Positions 12,354 to 17,765 of a DNA stretch of 64,000 nucleotides are shown here, piece after piece; within the stretch, counting starts at the first letter, position 1; each line of letters opens with the position of its first letter. Origin of the DNA: Lysobacter alkalisoli (GTDB lineage: Bacteria; Pseudomonadota; Gammaproteobacteria; Xanthomonadales; Xanthomonadaceae). The DNA is taken from assembly GCF_006547045.1 (NCBI RefSeq), contig NZ_CP041242.1:416001-480000 (forward strand). Direction: 5' to 3'. A program made the translations under genes and the position numbers. The notes under the pieces were generated by a model that did no database searches, was not told the origin of the DNA, and saw only the letters and a program-made list of their open reading frames with translations.

Positions 12354-12392
12354 GGGACTTGCGTCCCGGTAGTAACGACGTGACAGGTCGTT

Positions 12393-12465
12393 GTTTGGAG
12401 CGGGAATCGAACCCGCAACACTCGGATTAACAGTCCGATGCTCTACCCAATTGAGCTATCCAATT
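12393..12465 (-). tRNA. tRNA-Asn(GTT)-like gene with defective acceptor stem
   Basis: On the minus strand a 73-nt cloverleaf can be drawn: D arm GCTC/GAGC, anticodon arm TCGGA-CTGTTAA-TCCGA with anticodon GTT, variable loop GTGTT, and T arm GCGGG-TTCGATT-CCCGC. The acceptor stem AATTGGA/TCCAAAC pairs at only five of seven positions, with the two terminal pairs open, and no CCA follows. It therefore looks like a tRNA mimic or decayed tRNA rather than a working tRNA-Asn. Its 5' end abuts the 3' end of the second tRNA-like element. Confidence 0.6.
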
Positions 12466-12467
12466 GC

Positions 12468-12535
12468 GAAACGAACGGGAATCGAACCCGTGTCCTGTGG
12501 CTTGCGCCACCGCTCTGCCTCTGAGCTATCGCTTC
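12468..12535 (-). ncRNA. tRNA-like element lacking an anticodon loop
   Basis: A 68-nt minus-strand element. It has a seven-pair acceptor stem (GAAGCGA/TCGTTTC, one G-U), a normal D arm (GCTC-AGAGGCA-GAGC) and a perfect T arm (ACGGG-TTCGATT-CCCGT). The anticodon arm is replaced by GTGGC-GCAA-GCCAC, a stem capped by a GNRA-type tetraloop, so it has no anticodon and cannot decode. It stands in tandem with the tRNA-Asn-like element, upstream of slipin and rtcB on the same strand. In Salmonella the rtcBA operon carries Y RNAs with a tRNA-like module. This is a plausible analogue, but homology is not shown. Confidence 0.6.
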
Positions 12536-13063: not shown

Positions 13064-13269
13064 GGGAAAACAGGTCCTCGCGGGACGGAACTGAATTGGT
13101 CGGCTGACCGGAAGGCGGCGAACGATACGCCGTCGACACGCGGCATGCAAGCGCCTTTCGTCGGCGCCGAGCGGTTCGTGCGACCACGGGGATGTGTCAC
13201 CCAGGTGACAGCGCGCACGACGTGGCCTGCGCAGACTCGGGACGGAAGACATGACACGGAGCGTTGTCG

Positions 13270-13842
13270 ATGCAGAACCACTTGTCTCGAAACGATGCGC
13301 TGCGTCCCGAGGACCGCATGTTCGTAGCTGCATGGAAACGCATGCACCCCGAACTCCTCCGACGGGCGAGACGCCTGGCCGATGGCCATCCGGACAGGGC
13401 GGACGATCTGATGTCCGCCACCGCGATCAAGGCGTTGATGTTCATGCGCAGATCGCCGGATGCGATGACCGACCCGGACGGATTCCTGTTCGTCGTGCTC
13501 CGCCACGTGTTCCTCGACAATGTCCGCCAGCAGCTTCGAGAGCGCGCCGTCATCGACGACGCCGTCGATGTGCAGAGCGAGTACACACCCGCATCGGAGT
13601 CGCCTGCACTCTCGCAGATGCAGCGCCTGGAGCTGCAGGAGCAACTCGATGACGTGGTACGCGCGGTCCGTCACCTGACCCGAGAGCAGCGGCAGCTGTT
13701 CGGGTTCCGGTTCGTCCAGGAACTGTCGTATCCCGTTATCGCCGAGCGCCTGGAGATCAGCGAAGCCCTGGCGCGAAAGCGCGTGCAACTGCTACGGGCG
13801 CGGTTGCGCAGAAGCGCACCGGCCGGACGCGATGCGTCCTGA
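13270..13842 (+). CDS. RNA polymerase sigma factor (ECF-type) of the R-body locus
   Basis: A 190-residue sigma-70-family protein. Region 2 includes R-A-D-D-L-M-S-A-T-A-I-K-A-L (sigma2 helix, residues ~44-57) and F-L-F-V-V-L-R-H-V-F-L-D-N. Region 4 includes L-T-R-E-Q-R-Q-L-F and S-Y-P-V-I-A-E-R-L-E-I-S-E-A-L-A-R-K-R-V, the helix-turn-helix. The ATG at 13270 has GGAG 8 nt upstream. A TTG at 13264 is also possible. It lies upstream of and co-directional with the RebB genes. Reb loci in other Proteobacteria carry sigma factors and Crp-like regulators, so control of R-body synthesis is the likely role. Confidence 0.82.
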   Translation: MQNHLSRNDALRPEDRMFVAAWKRMHPELLRRARRLADGHPDRADDLMSATAIKALMFMRRSPDAMTDPDGFLFVVLRHVFLDNVRQQLRERAVIDDAVDVQSEYTPASESPALSQMQRLELQEQLDDVVRAVRHLTREQRQLFGFRFVQELSYPVIAERLEISEALARKRVQLLRARLRRSAPAGRDAS

Positions 13843-14093
13843 AGCGTTTCACCCCAGGCGCAGAGATGAGGTGCGCCAGCGCGACGTCGAGAAGGGCAGG
13901 CACATGAGTTGCGGCCATATCCCGCCCGGACGATGCGATCGGGATCCAGCTCCAGGATTCCCGCGTTCACAAGGTGCCGCAGCCGGCGTTCCTTTTGAGG
14001 CGGGGCCATCGCGCGGCCCGCCAGCCGGCCGCGCGATGGGCGTCCCGTCCCCGACCCAGCTCCCGACCCAGTTCCCGACACAAGGATTGCGCC

Positions 14094-14330
14094 ATGGCCG
14101 ACCCTCTTCCCGTCAACACCCAGATCACCGACGCCGTTACCCAGACCAACGTGAAAGTGGTGGCTGAGGCGCCGGCCCAGGCCATCGCGATGCTCTACCA
14201 GGTATCGAGTCATTCGACCGGACTGTCGCTGCAGAATGCCGTGCACAGCCAGCAGGCACTGAACCAGATATCCAACGCAGTGGTGTCGAAGGCCGCGACG
14301 CTGATCATGGCGATCGGAGAAAAGCCATGA
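14094..14330 (+). CDS. rebB: RebB-family R-body protein, short form
   Basis: A 78-residue protein with the RebB (killing trait) core: N-T-Q-I-T-D-A-V-T-Q-T-N-V-K-V-V at residues 8-23, A-P-A-Q-A-I-A-M-L-Y-Q, and S-H-S-T-G-L-S-L-Q-N-A-V. RebB-type proteins polymerise into refractile-body ribbons that extend like a spring with pH. This paralogue ends about 30 residues earlier than the other two RebB copies and lacks their Thr/Ala-rich tail. An AAGGA stands 8 nt before the ATG. It is the first structural gene after the sigma factor. Confidence 0.9.
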   Translation: MADPLPVNTQITDAVTQTNVKVVAEAPAQAIAMLYQVSSHSTGLSLQNAVHSQQALNQISNAVVSKAATLIMAIGEKP

Positions 14331-14403
14331 GCCCGCTGCTTTGCATCATCGCTGCGAACGTCCGTGACGGCGGGTCCTTTCGGGCCGAAGGGAGGTAATC
14401 GCG

Positions 14404-15066
14404 ATGGCATTCTGGTTCAAACGACGCAGGAAGCCCGGGTCGGGCGGTGACGGGACGGCCGGGGCGGATGCGGCCACCGCGTCGACGGTCGACGCGACGG
14501 AGGGTCCGACATCGCCCGGGAGCGGCGCGACGGGTGCCGGAAAGGACAATGCAAGCGAAGCGACTTCGAAGCCGTCGGCGAACCCGCCGCGCTCGACTTT
14601 TGGCCGGATGACCGACCGGCTGATGACGCAGTCGGTGGCGGCGCGGCCCGACACGTCCGCACTGAACACTCAGATCGTCCAGGCGGTGCAGTTGAGCAAT
14701 GCCGAGACGGTCGCCTATGCGCCGTCGCAGGTCGCGATCGGGCCCAACATGATGATCAGTCAGGCGGCGGGACTGGTCGCGCAGTCCGCGGCGGCCTATT
14801 TCGACGGGGTCAGCAAGTTGGCTCTGGCCAGCCAGGGCGTGCTGCTCAAGGACATGACCGAAAGCCTGGTCAACCAGCAGCTGGAGAAGGCGGCCGAGGA
14901 TGCGGTGGGCGTGCTCGCAACCGACGTGATGATGGGCGCGGCTGCCGCGGTGGCGGCCGCCGCGGGCGCGATGGAGGCGGAATCGGCGAGCTTCGCGATC
15001 GACCGGATCGATCAGAGCATCGCCAAGTACGCCGACTTGCTGGCGAACCGTCGTGGCAAGTCCTGA
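14404..15066 (+). CDS. Reb-locus protein with divergent RebB-like domain
   Basis: A 220-residue protein. Residues 1-65 are basic then low-complexity (F-K-R-R-R-K-P-G, followed by Gly/Ala/Thr/Ser-rich sequence). Residues ~83-125 read L-N-T-Q-I-V-Q-A-V-Q-L-S-N-A-E and Y-A-P-S-Q-V-A, an echo of the RebB T-Q-I-T-D-A-V-T-Q motif. Residues ~175-200 are an Ala-rich helix. A strong GGGAGGT precedes the ATG. Its 3' end overlaps the next gene by 14 nt, so the two are coupled. It may be a capping, nucleating or enlarged R-body subunit. The Reb relation is moderately sure and the function inferred. Confidence 0.7.
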   Translation: MAFWFKRRRKPGSGGDGTAGADAATASTVDATEGPTSPGSGATGAGKDNASEATSKPSANPPRSTFGRMTDRLMTQSVAARPDTSALNTQIVQAVQLSNAETVAYAPSQVAIGPNMMISQAAGLVAQSAAAYFDGVSKLALASQGVLLKDMTESLVNQQLEKAAEDAVGVLATDVMMGAAAAVAAAAGAMEAESASFAIDRIDQSIAKYADLLANRRGKS

Positions 15067-15700
15067 CCACGACGGCGCCCGGCCACAGCCGGCAGAGGGG
15101 AATCGACCGGGAACGCCTCCAGTGGAGTCCGCAAGCGACCCGACGCGAGCCGCGATCCGGAGTTTCTCCGAGCGTTACCTCGCTCGCCCGTTGACCTCCG
15201 AAGAGTGCGATACGCTCGACCGGCTGGTGGTCGGAGGCATGCGCGCGACGCCAATGCCTGTTTCCGGCGCGGACCCGGTCGCCGTGGTTGCCGATGCGCT
15301 GAGATCCGGACAGCGGACGATCGAAGAAGTGCTCTCGCAGGTACGCGAAGAGGCGGCCCGGCAGATCGAGCGGGCGGGTTCCGGCGCCGACAGCGAAACC
15401 CACGCGCTGGCCCGCCTGCTGGAAAAGGCCGAGGACCTGGGGTCGTTGCGTCCCTCACACCTGCCTGCCGGCCAGGAAGCCGGTCGCAGCCATGTCGTGA
15501 TCGCGCAGATCGCGGACCGCCTGGCCAACTTGGTGAAGCAGGAGGTCGAGACGCGCTTCCAGCTGCAGTTCGGCCCCCTCACACGGCAGCTCGAACAGGC
15601 ACTCGCCGCATTGTCGAGAACACCTCCGGAGACGACGGGGACATCGCCGTCGTCGACATCGTCGGCCGGACAGACTGGACCGGCCGACGCGTCGTCATGA
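15053..15700 (+). CDS. Reb-locus accessory protein, unknown function
   Basis: A 215-residue hydrophilic protein starting with GTG, overlapping the upstream gene by 14 nt. It has disordered Pro/Gly/Ser-rich ends and a helical centre. Residues ~36-115 contain L-A-R-P-L-T-S-E-E-C-D-T-L-D-R-L and I-E-E-V-L-S-Q-V-R-E-E-A, and ~145-190 contain I-A-Q-I-A-D-R-L-A-N-L-V-K-Q-E-V-E, a likely coiled coil. There is no signal peptide, membrane segment or enzyme motif. Translational coupling to the RebB-like gene suggests they act as a pair, perhaps chaperoning or organising R-body assembly. I do not recognise the family. Confidence 0.65.
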   Translation: MASPDHDGARPQPAEGNRPGTPPVESASDPTRAAIRSFSERYLARPLTSEECDTLDRLVVGGMRATPMPVSGADPVAVVADALRSGQRTIEEVLSQVREEAARQIERAGSGADSETHALARLLEKAEDLGSLRPSHLPAGQEAGRSHVVIAQIADRLANLVKQEVETRFQLQFGPLTRQLEQALAALSRTPPETTGTSPSSTSSAGQTGPADASS

Positions 15701-15891
15701 TCGAGGTTCCGGGCCTCTTCGCGCGCTGCATCGATTCCGTTTCGCGAGATTCCTCTTCATGGAACTTCGTCTCGCAGAGTTCGACTTCGCGCATCCCTGT
15801 GTCACGGAACCAGGTTTCACAAATGGGCCCCCGCAACGTTTTCTGAAACGTACGGCAGTGGCCGTGCGCAACCTTCCAAGGAGTCGAAGCA

Positions 15892-16215
15892 ATGGCATTC
15901 CCAACCGCGGTCAATGACCAGATCACCGATGCAGTCACCCAGTCCAACGTCAAGGTCGTGGGCGAATCCCCCGCATTCGCGATGAGTTCGATATACCAGA
16001 CCATGGCGCACTCGACCGGAATCCTGTTCGAGAACGCCGTGTCCGCCCAGCAGCAGCAGAACACGCTGTCGCAGGCCGCCGCCAACCAGGGCGTGATGCA
16101 GATCTACAGCCTCGACACCACGGCGGCTGCCGGCGCCACCGAGAAGGTCGCCCAGACCGGCGTGGCGGACAATCTGACCAGTCTGCTCACCGTGCTCAAC
16201 GCCTTCCGCGGATGA
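15892..16215 (+). CDS. rebB: RebB-family R-body protein
   Basis: A 107-residue RebB protein with the motif N-D-Q-I-T-D-A-V-T-Q-S-N-V-K-V-V at residues 8-23, then M-A-H-S-T-G-I-L-F-E-N-A-V-S-A-Q-Q-Q-Q-N. It ends in a Thr/Ala tail containing T-T-A-A-A-G-A-T-E-K. AAGGAG is close before the ATG. It is a close paralogue of the protein encoded 83 nt downstream, indicating tandem duplication. A 191-bp gap before it, with no evident gene, separates it from the accessory pair and may hold a promoter. Confidence 0.93.
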   Translation: MAFPTAVNDQITDAVTQSNVKVVGESPAFAMSSIYQTMAHSTGILFENAVSAQQQQNTLSQAAANQGVMQIYSLDTTAAAGATEKVAQTGVADNLTSLLTVLNAFRG

Positions 16216-16298
16216 ACGAAGGCCGGGCCCTGATGGGCCGGCTGTCTGCGTGAACATCATTCCCGTGGCCGACAAGGCCAGCTGCAAGGAGAAGTCAA

Positions 16299-16643
16299 AT
16301 GGCATTTCCAACTTCCGTCAACAACCAGATCACCGATGCGGTGACCCAGTCCAATGTGAAGATCGTCGGCGAGGCGCCCGCCATGGCGATCGCGTCCATG
16401 TACCAGACGATGGCGCATTCGACCGGCATCCTGTTCGAGAATTCGGTCTCGGCCCAGCAGCAGCAGAACACGCTGTCGCAGGCCGCCACCAACCAGGGGG
16501 TGATGCAGGTCTACAGCGTCGACACCACCGCCGCGGCGGGCGCTTCCGAGAAGATCGCCCAGACCGGGGTCTCGGACAACCTGACCAGCCTGCTCTCGGT
16601 GCTGCAGTCGTTCTCCGGCCCCCAGCAGTCGAAGGGCCTGTAG
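16299..16643 (+). CDS. rebB: RebB-family R-body protein
   Basis: A 114-residue paralogue of the preceding protein, with N-N-Q-I-T-D-A-V-T-Q-S-N-V-K-I-V, M-A-H-S-T-G-I-L-F-E-N-S-V and a seven-residue longer C-terminus (P-Q-Q-S-K-G-L). The two proteins agree over nearly the whole length, while their DNA differs mainly at third positions. Both copies thus appear to be under selection rather than being a very recent duplication. AAGGAG precedes the ATG. Together with the upstream copy it is the probable bulk ribbon subunit. Confidence 0.93.
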   Translation: MAFPTSVNNQITDAVTQSNVKIVGEAPAMAIASMYQTMAHSTGILFENSVSAQQQQNTLSQAATNQGVMQVYSVDTTAAAGASEKIAQTGVSDNLTSLLSVLQSFSGPQQSKGL

Positions 16644-16898
16644 TCGGAGGGCCTGCAAAGGCCAGCACCCAAGCTGCGCGATGCCGGGCCTTCCGGTATC
16701 GCGCGGCTTGTCGCGGAAGTGGCGGGTGACGGCTCGCGAGCGCGCGGGCCGTGCAAGGAAGAAAGGGGGAATGTATGTCGATGCAATACCGGACGATGGC
16801 ATGGCGATGCGCGCACGCAGCGTCGGGGCAACACGAGCTGCCGTGTCGTTGCTGACACGTCCTGGGGAAGGGGACTATGGACACGATGACAGGGACAC

Positions 16899-17765
16899 GT
16901 GCTCAGCCAGCGGGAATCGCGGGAGATCCGCGAAACACGGTCGAAGCAGATGGCGCACGAACGCGCGCGCGAACGGTTGGCGGGCACTTCCATGGGTTGT
17001 GATCGCAGCCGGCCGCAGGCGCCTGGCGCCGACGACGCGGAAGCAGCCCGCCGCCACCAGCTTGCGGCTTCCGCGTTCTTCCAAGGCGTTCCCGATTACA
17101 TAGTGACGCACGTCGCGCGCTACGCGATCGAACGCCGGCTCAGGGATGGCGATGCCCTGTTCTTCAAGAACGACCCGTGCGAGTTCATGGGTGTCGTGGT
17201 GGCCGGGCATGTCTACAAGATCCTGTACGGACCGGAAGGACAGGAGCTGATCGTGGACAGCATCGAACCGGGCGAGAGCGTGGGCGAAACGGCGCTCCTG
17301 GACCGCGGTCGGCACAGCTTCACCGCGATCGCCTATGGCCCGGCGACCGTGCTGGTGCTGGCGCGGCGCCACTTCGCCGCGCTGGTGGCGGAGCCGGCGA
17401 TGATCGAACGCGCCTATGCGGTGCTGTGCACCCGGCTGCGGCGCGCGGTGGACAGCCTTGAGACCATGTGCCTGCATCGCCTGGAGTCGCGGCTGGCGCG
17501 CCACCTGCTGAACCACATGCCTGATGCCCCCGCGGCGTCCCCGGACCGGTTCGTGGTGACGCTGCCCCCGACCCAGAGCATCCTGGCGGCGATGATCAAC
17601 GCCAGTCGGCCGAAGCTCAATGCCCAGCTCCAGTGCTGGCATCGGACCGGTCTGATCAGCAGACGTCGCAACACGCTCAGGATCAACGATATCGACCTGT
17701 TCCGCTGCAAGGCTCAGCTGGGGCGCGGCTCCGCTTGCCTGCCGGCAAACGTCGACAGCGCCTGA
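16899..17765 (+). CDS. Crp/Fnr-family transcriptional regulator at the Reb locus
   Basis: A regulator of up to 288 residues. A cyclic-nucleotide-binding-type beta-roll is visible (G-D-A-L-F-F-K, G-E-S-V-G-E-T-A-L-L-D). A long dimer helix follows, then a Crp-type winged helix with P-P-T-Q-S-I-L-A-A-M-I-N-A-S-R-P-K-L-N. The cAMP-contact pattern R-S/T is not obvious in the phosphate-binding cassette, so the ligand is unclear. The start is ambiguous: GTG 16899, ATG 16950 and ATG 16992 are all in frame and none has a strong ribosome-binding site. Its position right after the RebB genes suggests it regulates them. The 255-bp gap before it shows no other gene. Confidence 0.8.
   Translation: MLSQRESREIRETRSKQMAHERARERLAGTSMGCDRSRPQAPGADDAEAARRHQLAASAFFQGVPDYIVTHVARYAIERRLRDGDALFFKNDPCEFMGVVVAGHVYKILYGPEGQELIVDSIEPGESVGETALLDRGRHSFTAIAYGPATVLVLARRHFAALVAEPAMIERAYAVLCTRLRRAVDSLETMCLHRLESRLARHLLNHMPDAPAASPDRFVVTLPPTQSILAAMINASRPKLNAQLQCWHRTGLISRRRNTLRINDIDLFRCKAQLGRGSACLPANVDSA

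Follow-up and report, generated by a model that had tools for sequence, protein, structure and literature searches.

The reb genes encode the proteins of R-bodies, contractile bacterial ribbons that are coiled, extendable, and insoluble in SDS. Group 2 clusters of these genes were defined by two hypothetical proteins of 205–220 amino acids (aa), HP2.1 and HP2.2, and frequently also contain HP2.3, a sigma factor, and HP2.4, a regulator that binds cyclic nucleotides (Raymann et al. 2013, PMC3583457). The reb cluster of Pseudomonas aeruginosa PA14 makes R-bodies, and expression of its rebP1 gene requires both the sigma factor FecI2 and the regulator RcgA (Wang et al. 2021, PMC8322103). The cargo of R-bodies has been an open question since Sonneborn's 1938 report of Paramecium killing, and the toxic factor is still called unidentified (cited in PMC8322103). 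Here, we analyze the reb cluster within a 64,000-nucleotide (nt) stretch of the Lysobacter alkalisoli genome (contig NZ_CP041242.1, positions 416,001 to 480,000; hereafter the window). Judged by gene content and order, the locus is an intact Group 2 cluster, a type already known, and we consider it highly probable that a functional R-body system run by its own sigma factor, through promoters that carry a two-part motif, explains it.

The cluster comprises seven genes on the forward strand, all with open frames (Table 1), and the reading frames and Pfam matches agree on the positions that had been assigned in an earlier reading of the sequence alone (the sequence-only reading). That reading recognized three RebB paralogues of different lengths, and the corresponding proteins score 90–101 bits against the RebB family (PF11747, cut-off of 24); a Pfam search of the organism's own genome returns these three matches and no others, while 14 control genomes yield none. 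The predicted sigma factor, for which an alternative TTG start is possible at position 13264, matches Sigma70_r2 (E = 1.2e-5), Sigma70_r4_2 (E = 3.9e-9), and TIGR02937 (over its cut-off), and is of the extracytoplasmic function (ECF) type in being short and containing regions 2 and 4 only. It scores 36.6 bits against the FecI model, under the cut-off of 260, which places it outside the FecI family, and no FecR anti-sigma factor is found by Pfam among the seven cluster genes. The regulator has the two domains of the Crp/Fnr type (cNMP_binding, E = 1.6e-16; HTH_Crp_2, E = 1.8e-11). HP2.1 and HP2.2 match no Pfam family, and their reading frames overlap by 14 nt, in line with the two coupled accessory genes of the sequence-only reading. 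The locus yielded neither a sigma-70 promoter nor an intrinsic terminator, and no solved structure is related to RebP1 by sequence.

The Reb genes, HP2.1 and HP2.2 of the expected size, the sigma factor, and the regulator are thus all present, and together with the conserved gene order this places the locus in the known Group 2 kind. Profiles derived from HP2.1 and HP2.2 retrieve both genes, in unchanged order, from other clusters of the type, and the order sigma–rebD–HP2.1–(extra gene)–HP2.2–rebP1–rebP2 is recovered in Lysobacter, Xanthomonas, Dyella, Pseudomonas, Paraburkholderia, and others. The sigma gene keeps its position in the Group 2 clusters of Lysobacter, Xanthomonas, Dyella, Pseudomonas, and Burkholderia relatives; the placement of the Crp-type gene is lineage-dependent (downstream, upstream, or inverted). 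The earlier description of a complete R-body locus therefore stands, as every Group 2 component is in place, and the comparison of reb loci in related genomes that it proposed shows the same gene order in about 60 Group 2 clusters. Its highlighting of a dedicated sigma factor and a Crp-type regulator is borne out by the domains, but this equipment has already been described as usual for Group 2. It did not mention the two promoter sites of sigma type, the conserved inverted repeat of the rebP1 leader, or the relation of HP2.1 to RapA, all of which we describe below.

When the rebD and rebP1 leaders are placed side by side, TTCACAA is seen to be followed by CGTT at a fixed distance. We defined the motif TTCACA(A/G)-N14-CGTT from Lysobacterales loci and tested it on a set of 80 loci retrieved through HP2.1; some of these are the same clusters as the defining ones or close relatives of them, while the Pseudomonas and Burkholderia-type loci, about half of the set, are fully independent of the motif definition. 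Across the 80 loci, the motif occurs 98 times on the cluster strand and twice on the opposite strand, against 0–1 times in dinucleotide shuffles, and a spacing of 14 stands alone, with spacings of 8–13 and 15–21 yielding at most two matches each. It precedes 52 of 61 rebD genes and 55 of 73 first rebP genes, whereas only 1 of 71 later rebP genes is preceded by it. In an alignment of 107 sites, conservation is limited to the two blocks, the second extending to CGTTC, and the 40 nt upstream contain no conserved half-site or other conservation, which makes for a promoter-like pattern. The strict motif is found three times in the 3.86-Mb genome, twice at the reb cluster. Ten reb-positive genomes of the order contain 40 sites, compared to 2 in ten reb-negative genomes of the same family, and the backward pattern, used as a control, gives about equal counts in the two sets. 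Several genome-wide matches fall within long reading frames and are probably due to chance. What is new here is this highly specific two-part promoter signature and the gene list generated from it: with the motif nearly absent from reb-negative relatives, reb-positive genomes yield short lists of testable co-regulated genes.

A second element is seen in most rebP1 leaders, where an inverted repeat, its stem about 7 bp long and its loop 4 nt, starts 8–10 nt past CGTT; it does not occur in rebD leaders. In 23 aligned rebP1 leaders, 92.5% of cells are paired, compared to 17–44% in slid controls, and both-sided changes occur at five of the seven pairs of the stem, although these leaders were drawn from those showing the repeat, which favors pairing and is corrected only partly by the slide control. 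The repeat may be a stem-loop at the 5' end of the mRNA or an operator. That it serves as an operator for the regulator rather than as an RNA stem-loop is a credible reading that we favor somewhat less: its half-sites lie about one helical turn apart, and the Crp-Fnr-type activator RebR binds GT(A/G)(A/C)C-N4-G(T/G)(T/C)AC in the Azorhizobium reb promoter (PMC5527310). The stem sequence, however, varies between taxa with compensation, which an operator could accommodate if regulator and operator had co-evolved. By inspection, the leader of an M35-like gene described below has, in these same genomes, an inverted repeat at the corresponding place whose sequence is different; a single regulator would not share both, and this difference mildly favors a role in the RNA.

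Given the distribution of the motif and the genetics of PA14, the cluster sigma factor probably reads the TTCACA(A/G)-N14-CGTT promoter. An alternative assignment, in which TTCACA is a binding site of the Crp-type regulator rather than a −35 element, draws on the resemblance of TCACA to a Crp half-site and on the palindrome bound by the Crp-family activator RebR in Azorhizobium (PMC5527310). We consider it improbable, as the distance between TTCACA and CGTT is rigid, no second half-site is conserved in the 40 nt upstream of the 107 sites, and no sigma-70 promoter was found at the locus. In addition, three loci with no identified sigma gene (L112, L113, and L117) also lack the motif; together with distant clusters, they account for many of the missing cases. 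Weighing against recognition by the sigma factor and the wider model built on it, some clusters, most of them of Burkholderia or alphaproteobacterial type, have a divergent site or none. The model also leaves HP2.2 unexplained, the predicted all-helix structure of this protein being of low confidence (predicted local distance difference test, pLDDT, of 60). Schulz et al. 2015 (PMC4362757) derived a FecI2 logo, shown as a figure, and priority for the Pseudomonas motif may lie with those authors.

Compared to congeners, the Reb genes have the lowest ratios of nonsynonymous to synonymous substitution rates (dN/dS of 0.03–0.16, with rebD at 0.03–0.06), followed by the genes for the sigma factor (0.12–0.24), HP2.1 (0.13–0.30), and the Crp-type regulator (0.14–0.35), while HP2.2 is under the weakest purifying selection (0.34–0.53). 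Purifying selection across the genes argues that the cluster is not decaying. That it is a relic from which R-bodies are no longer made is the least probable of the alternatives: decayed clusters without sigma, rebD, and Crp-type genes do occur in two related Xanthomonas-type genomes (G141 and G180), one congener (G302) lacks the cluster, and we know of no report of R-bodies in the host genus, but all seven frames are open, both promoter sites are intact, and dN/dS is 0.03–0.35 for six of the seven genes. In the decayed loci of Xanthomonas-type genomes (L016, L018, and L117), rebP2 is degenerate and the sigma, rebD, and Crp-type genes are gone.

In the model that we prefer, the cluster's ECF-type sigma factor would direct RNA polymerase to the motif promoters, with site 1 driving rebD–HP2.1–HP2.2 and site 2 driving rebP1–rebP2 through a leader that opens with the stem-loop or operator, and the Crp-type protein would gate the system in response to an intracellular signal. 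RebP1 and RebP2 would then polymerize into a coiled ribbon together with the RapA-like HP2.1. When the cell is taken up by a predator, or upon some other trigger, the ribbon would extend, the cell would break, and its contents would be released, including the products of motif-bearing genes elsewhere in the genome. If the sigma factor does read the motif, overexpression of this one protein is expected to induce the R-body and, at the same time, the proteins that accompany it. The statement in the sequence-only reading that the role of R-bodies in free-living xanthomonads is not established is a fair one.

Further motif sites, in the organism's own genome and in others, precede genes that may encode such accompanying proteins. 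One site in the organism's own genome, at 2194315 (−), precedes a gene (2193543-2194271) for a 243-aa protein with an HEMSH...D motif, which matches Aspzincin_M35 (PF14521) at E = 3.3e-5 and 24.8 bits, under the curated cut-off of 30. This M35-like gene is shared by all six reb-positive congeners, counting the organism itself, and is absent from the reb-negative congener; in all six it is preceded by the motif, four times at a spacing of 14 and twice at 15. Across the order, it is essentially confined to the host genus; the one distant match, in G244, lacks the motif and is no more than a remote M35-type protein. The third strict site, at 547855 (−) (loci L140 and L210), precedes a 113-aa open reading frame (ORF; 547478-547816) that is kept, with its site, in one congener. 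Two ORFs follow this frame, the second of which looks ubiquitin-like at its start by eye (MLITITFEG...LRVRA); no Pfam match was found. Elsewhere, the motif precedes an adenosine deaminase (ADA)-like gene in the Xanthomonas-type genome G195, an endonuclease/exonuclease/phosphatase (EEP)-family nuclease ORF in two Paraburkholderia clusters (L092:10355-11050, Exo_endo_phos at 1.9e-12 by Pfam; L089 at about 10480, +), uncharacterized ORFs in other genomes, and a standalone reb gene in G258. The opening of the EEP nuclease, TWNM.G, has a CdtB-type likeness by eye. The standalone gene (G258:C6:712171-712483, in L025) lies a long way from the main cluster, has a promoter site of its own, and encodes a Reb protein of about 205 aa; many genomes contain standalone Reb genes of this kind. 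We tentatively propose, while giving it somewhat less than an even chance, that the sigma factor commands a regulon in which the same sacrificial cells produce both the R-body and genome-specific soluble enzymes, the enzymes being the released cargo. Candidates for such cargo may be the M35-like protein in this genus and the ADA-fold protein, the EEP nuclease, a papain-like enzyme, or a lysozyme in others.

HP2.1 has a short motif of aromatic and basic residues at its N-terminus (MAFWF, MWPF, MSWFSRKK, and similar across taxa), followed by a disordered linker that is highly variable in length and composition and by a divergent Reb-like C-terminal domain. In a profile comparison of 63 and 194 sequences, this C-terminal domain matches Reb at E = 4.6e-5 with a probability of 68%, compared to 0.2% for HP2.2 as a control; a first comparison with full-length HP2.1 had given 1.4%. 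We take this as modest support for a relationship between HP2.1 and Reb. HP2.1 sits directly after rebD, and its homologues are likewise placed in Pseudomonas clusters, so that by position and by its match to the Reb profile it is RapA-like, the RapA of PA14 having been compared only through these Pseudomonas homologues. That the tip is conserved while the linker is not suggests, as only a guess, that HP2.1 tethers the polymer to something, possibly the membrane. Some HP2.1 linkers are made of long simple repeats, such as (SPS)n in Luteimonas aquatica (L028:6631-8268) and (PT)n in Dyella (L031:6763-7569).

Between HP2.1 and HP2.2, relatives contain varied genes or none; several Group 2 clusters have an extra gene here, whereas in the window this slot is empty, as the two frames overlap. 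In Lysobacter, Dyella, some Pseudomonas, and Azoarcus-type clusters, the slot is occupied by a protein of 713–775 aa that matches no Pfam family. Its predicted model (pLDDT of 80) aligns by VIA-align to adenosine deaminases and Cad1 over about 300 residues with Z-scores of 17–21 (maximum of 20.8), Foldseek alone finds the same families with weak E-values, and the HxH, HIHCGEG, and Asp metal or catalytic residues are kept in most rows. As modeled, the slot protein has the adenosine deaminase fold. No ADA-like gene was found in the organism's own genome. In the Pseudomonas fluorescens group, the slot contains a papain-like, C92-type protein by a weak match (L075:7563-8204), and in Paraburkholderia a 4.5-kb insert with a phage-type lysozyme (L064:11437-11877). 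The PA14 cluster includes the non-conserved genes PA14_27650, 27660, and 27675, one of which was detected in R-body preparations (PMC8322103).

Of 299 genomes sampled across the order, 31 contain RebB, as do six of seven in the host genus (Marilutibacter). Congeners and Lysobacter have the cluster in a common chromosomal slot, where it follows a slipin-like gene and precedes a tesA–ABC-permease block, and congener G302 has the tesA block and no reb cluster. Recent mobility was considered and set aside: two adjacent tRNA genes lie upstream of the cluster (window positions 12392-12535, −), but the shared flanks, a GC content (0.659) like that of the window (0.654), and the G302 block without the cluster are better fitted by vertical inheritance with occasional loss. 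A tRNA-Arg(CCG) adjoins the reb cluster in several Pseudomonas genomes.

Table 1. Features of the reb cluster in the window, with the slot protein of related clusters (locus coordinates)
Feature	Position	Strand	Remarks
ECF-type sigma factor (HP2.3; FecI2-position gene)	13270..13842	+	190 aa from ATG; Pfam and TIGR02937 matches, conserved position
Promoter site 1, TTCACAA-N14-CGTT	13966..13990	+	upstream of rebD/HP2.1/HP2.2
rebD-type short Reb	14094..14330	+	78 aa; Pfam RebB, E = 3.5e-26
HP2.1, RapA-type	14404..15066	+	220 aa; homologue alignment, N-termini across taxa, Reb profile comparison
HP2.2	15053..15700	+	215 aa; fast-evolving, predicted helical, conserved segment QIADRLANLV
Promoter site 2, TTCACAA-N14-CGTT	15816..15840	+	upstream of rebP1–rebP2
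Inverted repeat (stem-loop or operator)	15849..15868	+	at expected 5' end of rebP1 transcript; 8-bp stem
rebP1-type structural Reb	15892..16215	+	107 aa; Pfam RebB, E = 5e-29
rebP2-type structural Reb	16299..16643	+	114 aa; Pfam RebB, E = 3.1e-28
Crp/Fnr-type regulator (HP2.4; RcgA-position gene)	16899..17765	+	288 aa from GTG; start uncertain
713–775-aa slot protein	L057:7564-9801		also L024, L026, L029, L030, L054, L055, L062, L065, L082, L085

Among described systems, the reb operon of Azorhizobium caulinodans has a Crp-Fnr-type activator and a promoter palindrome, as in the window (PMC5527310). There, repression by PraR dominates and the word sigma does not appear in the paper, while no PraR- or TetR-type gene is found among the seven cluster genes here. 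The Group 2 pattern of Raymann et al. (PMC3583457) is matched in gene content; the text read describes neither a promoter signature nor co-regulated genes outside the cluster. In the classification of a 2026 study in BMC Genomics (PMC13430693), rebP1/rebP2, rebD, and the RapA-like HP2.1 correspond to Reb groups 2, 3, and S4; sigma factors, regulators, and promoters were outside the scope of that study. In the PA14 cluster, rebD, rapA, rebP1P2, fecI2, and rcgA correspond by position and type, as compared through other Pseudomonas clusters, to the genes of the window, with the difference that the regulator gene lies downstream in the window.

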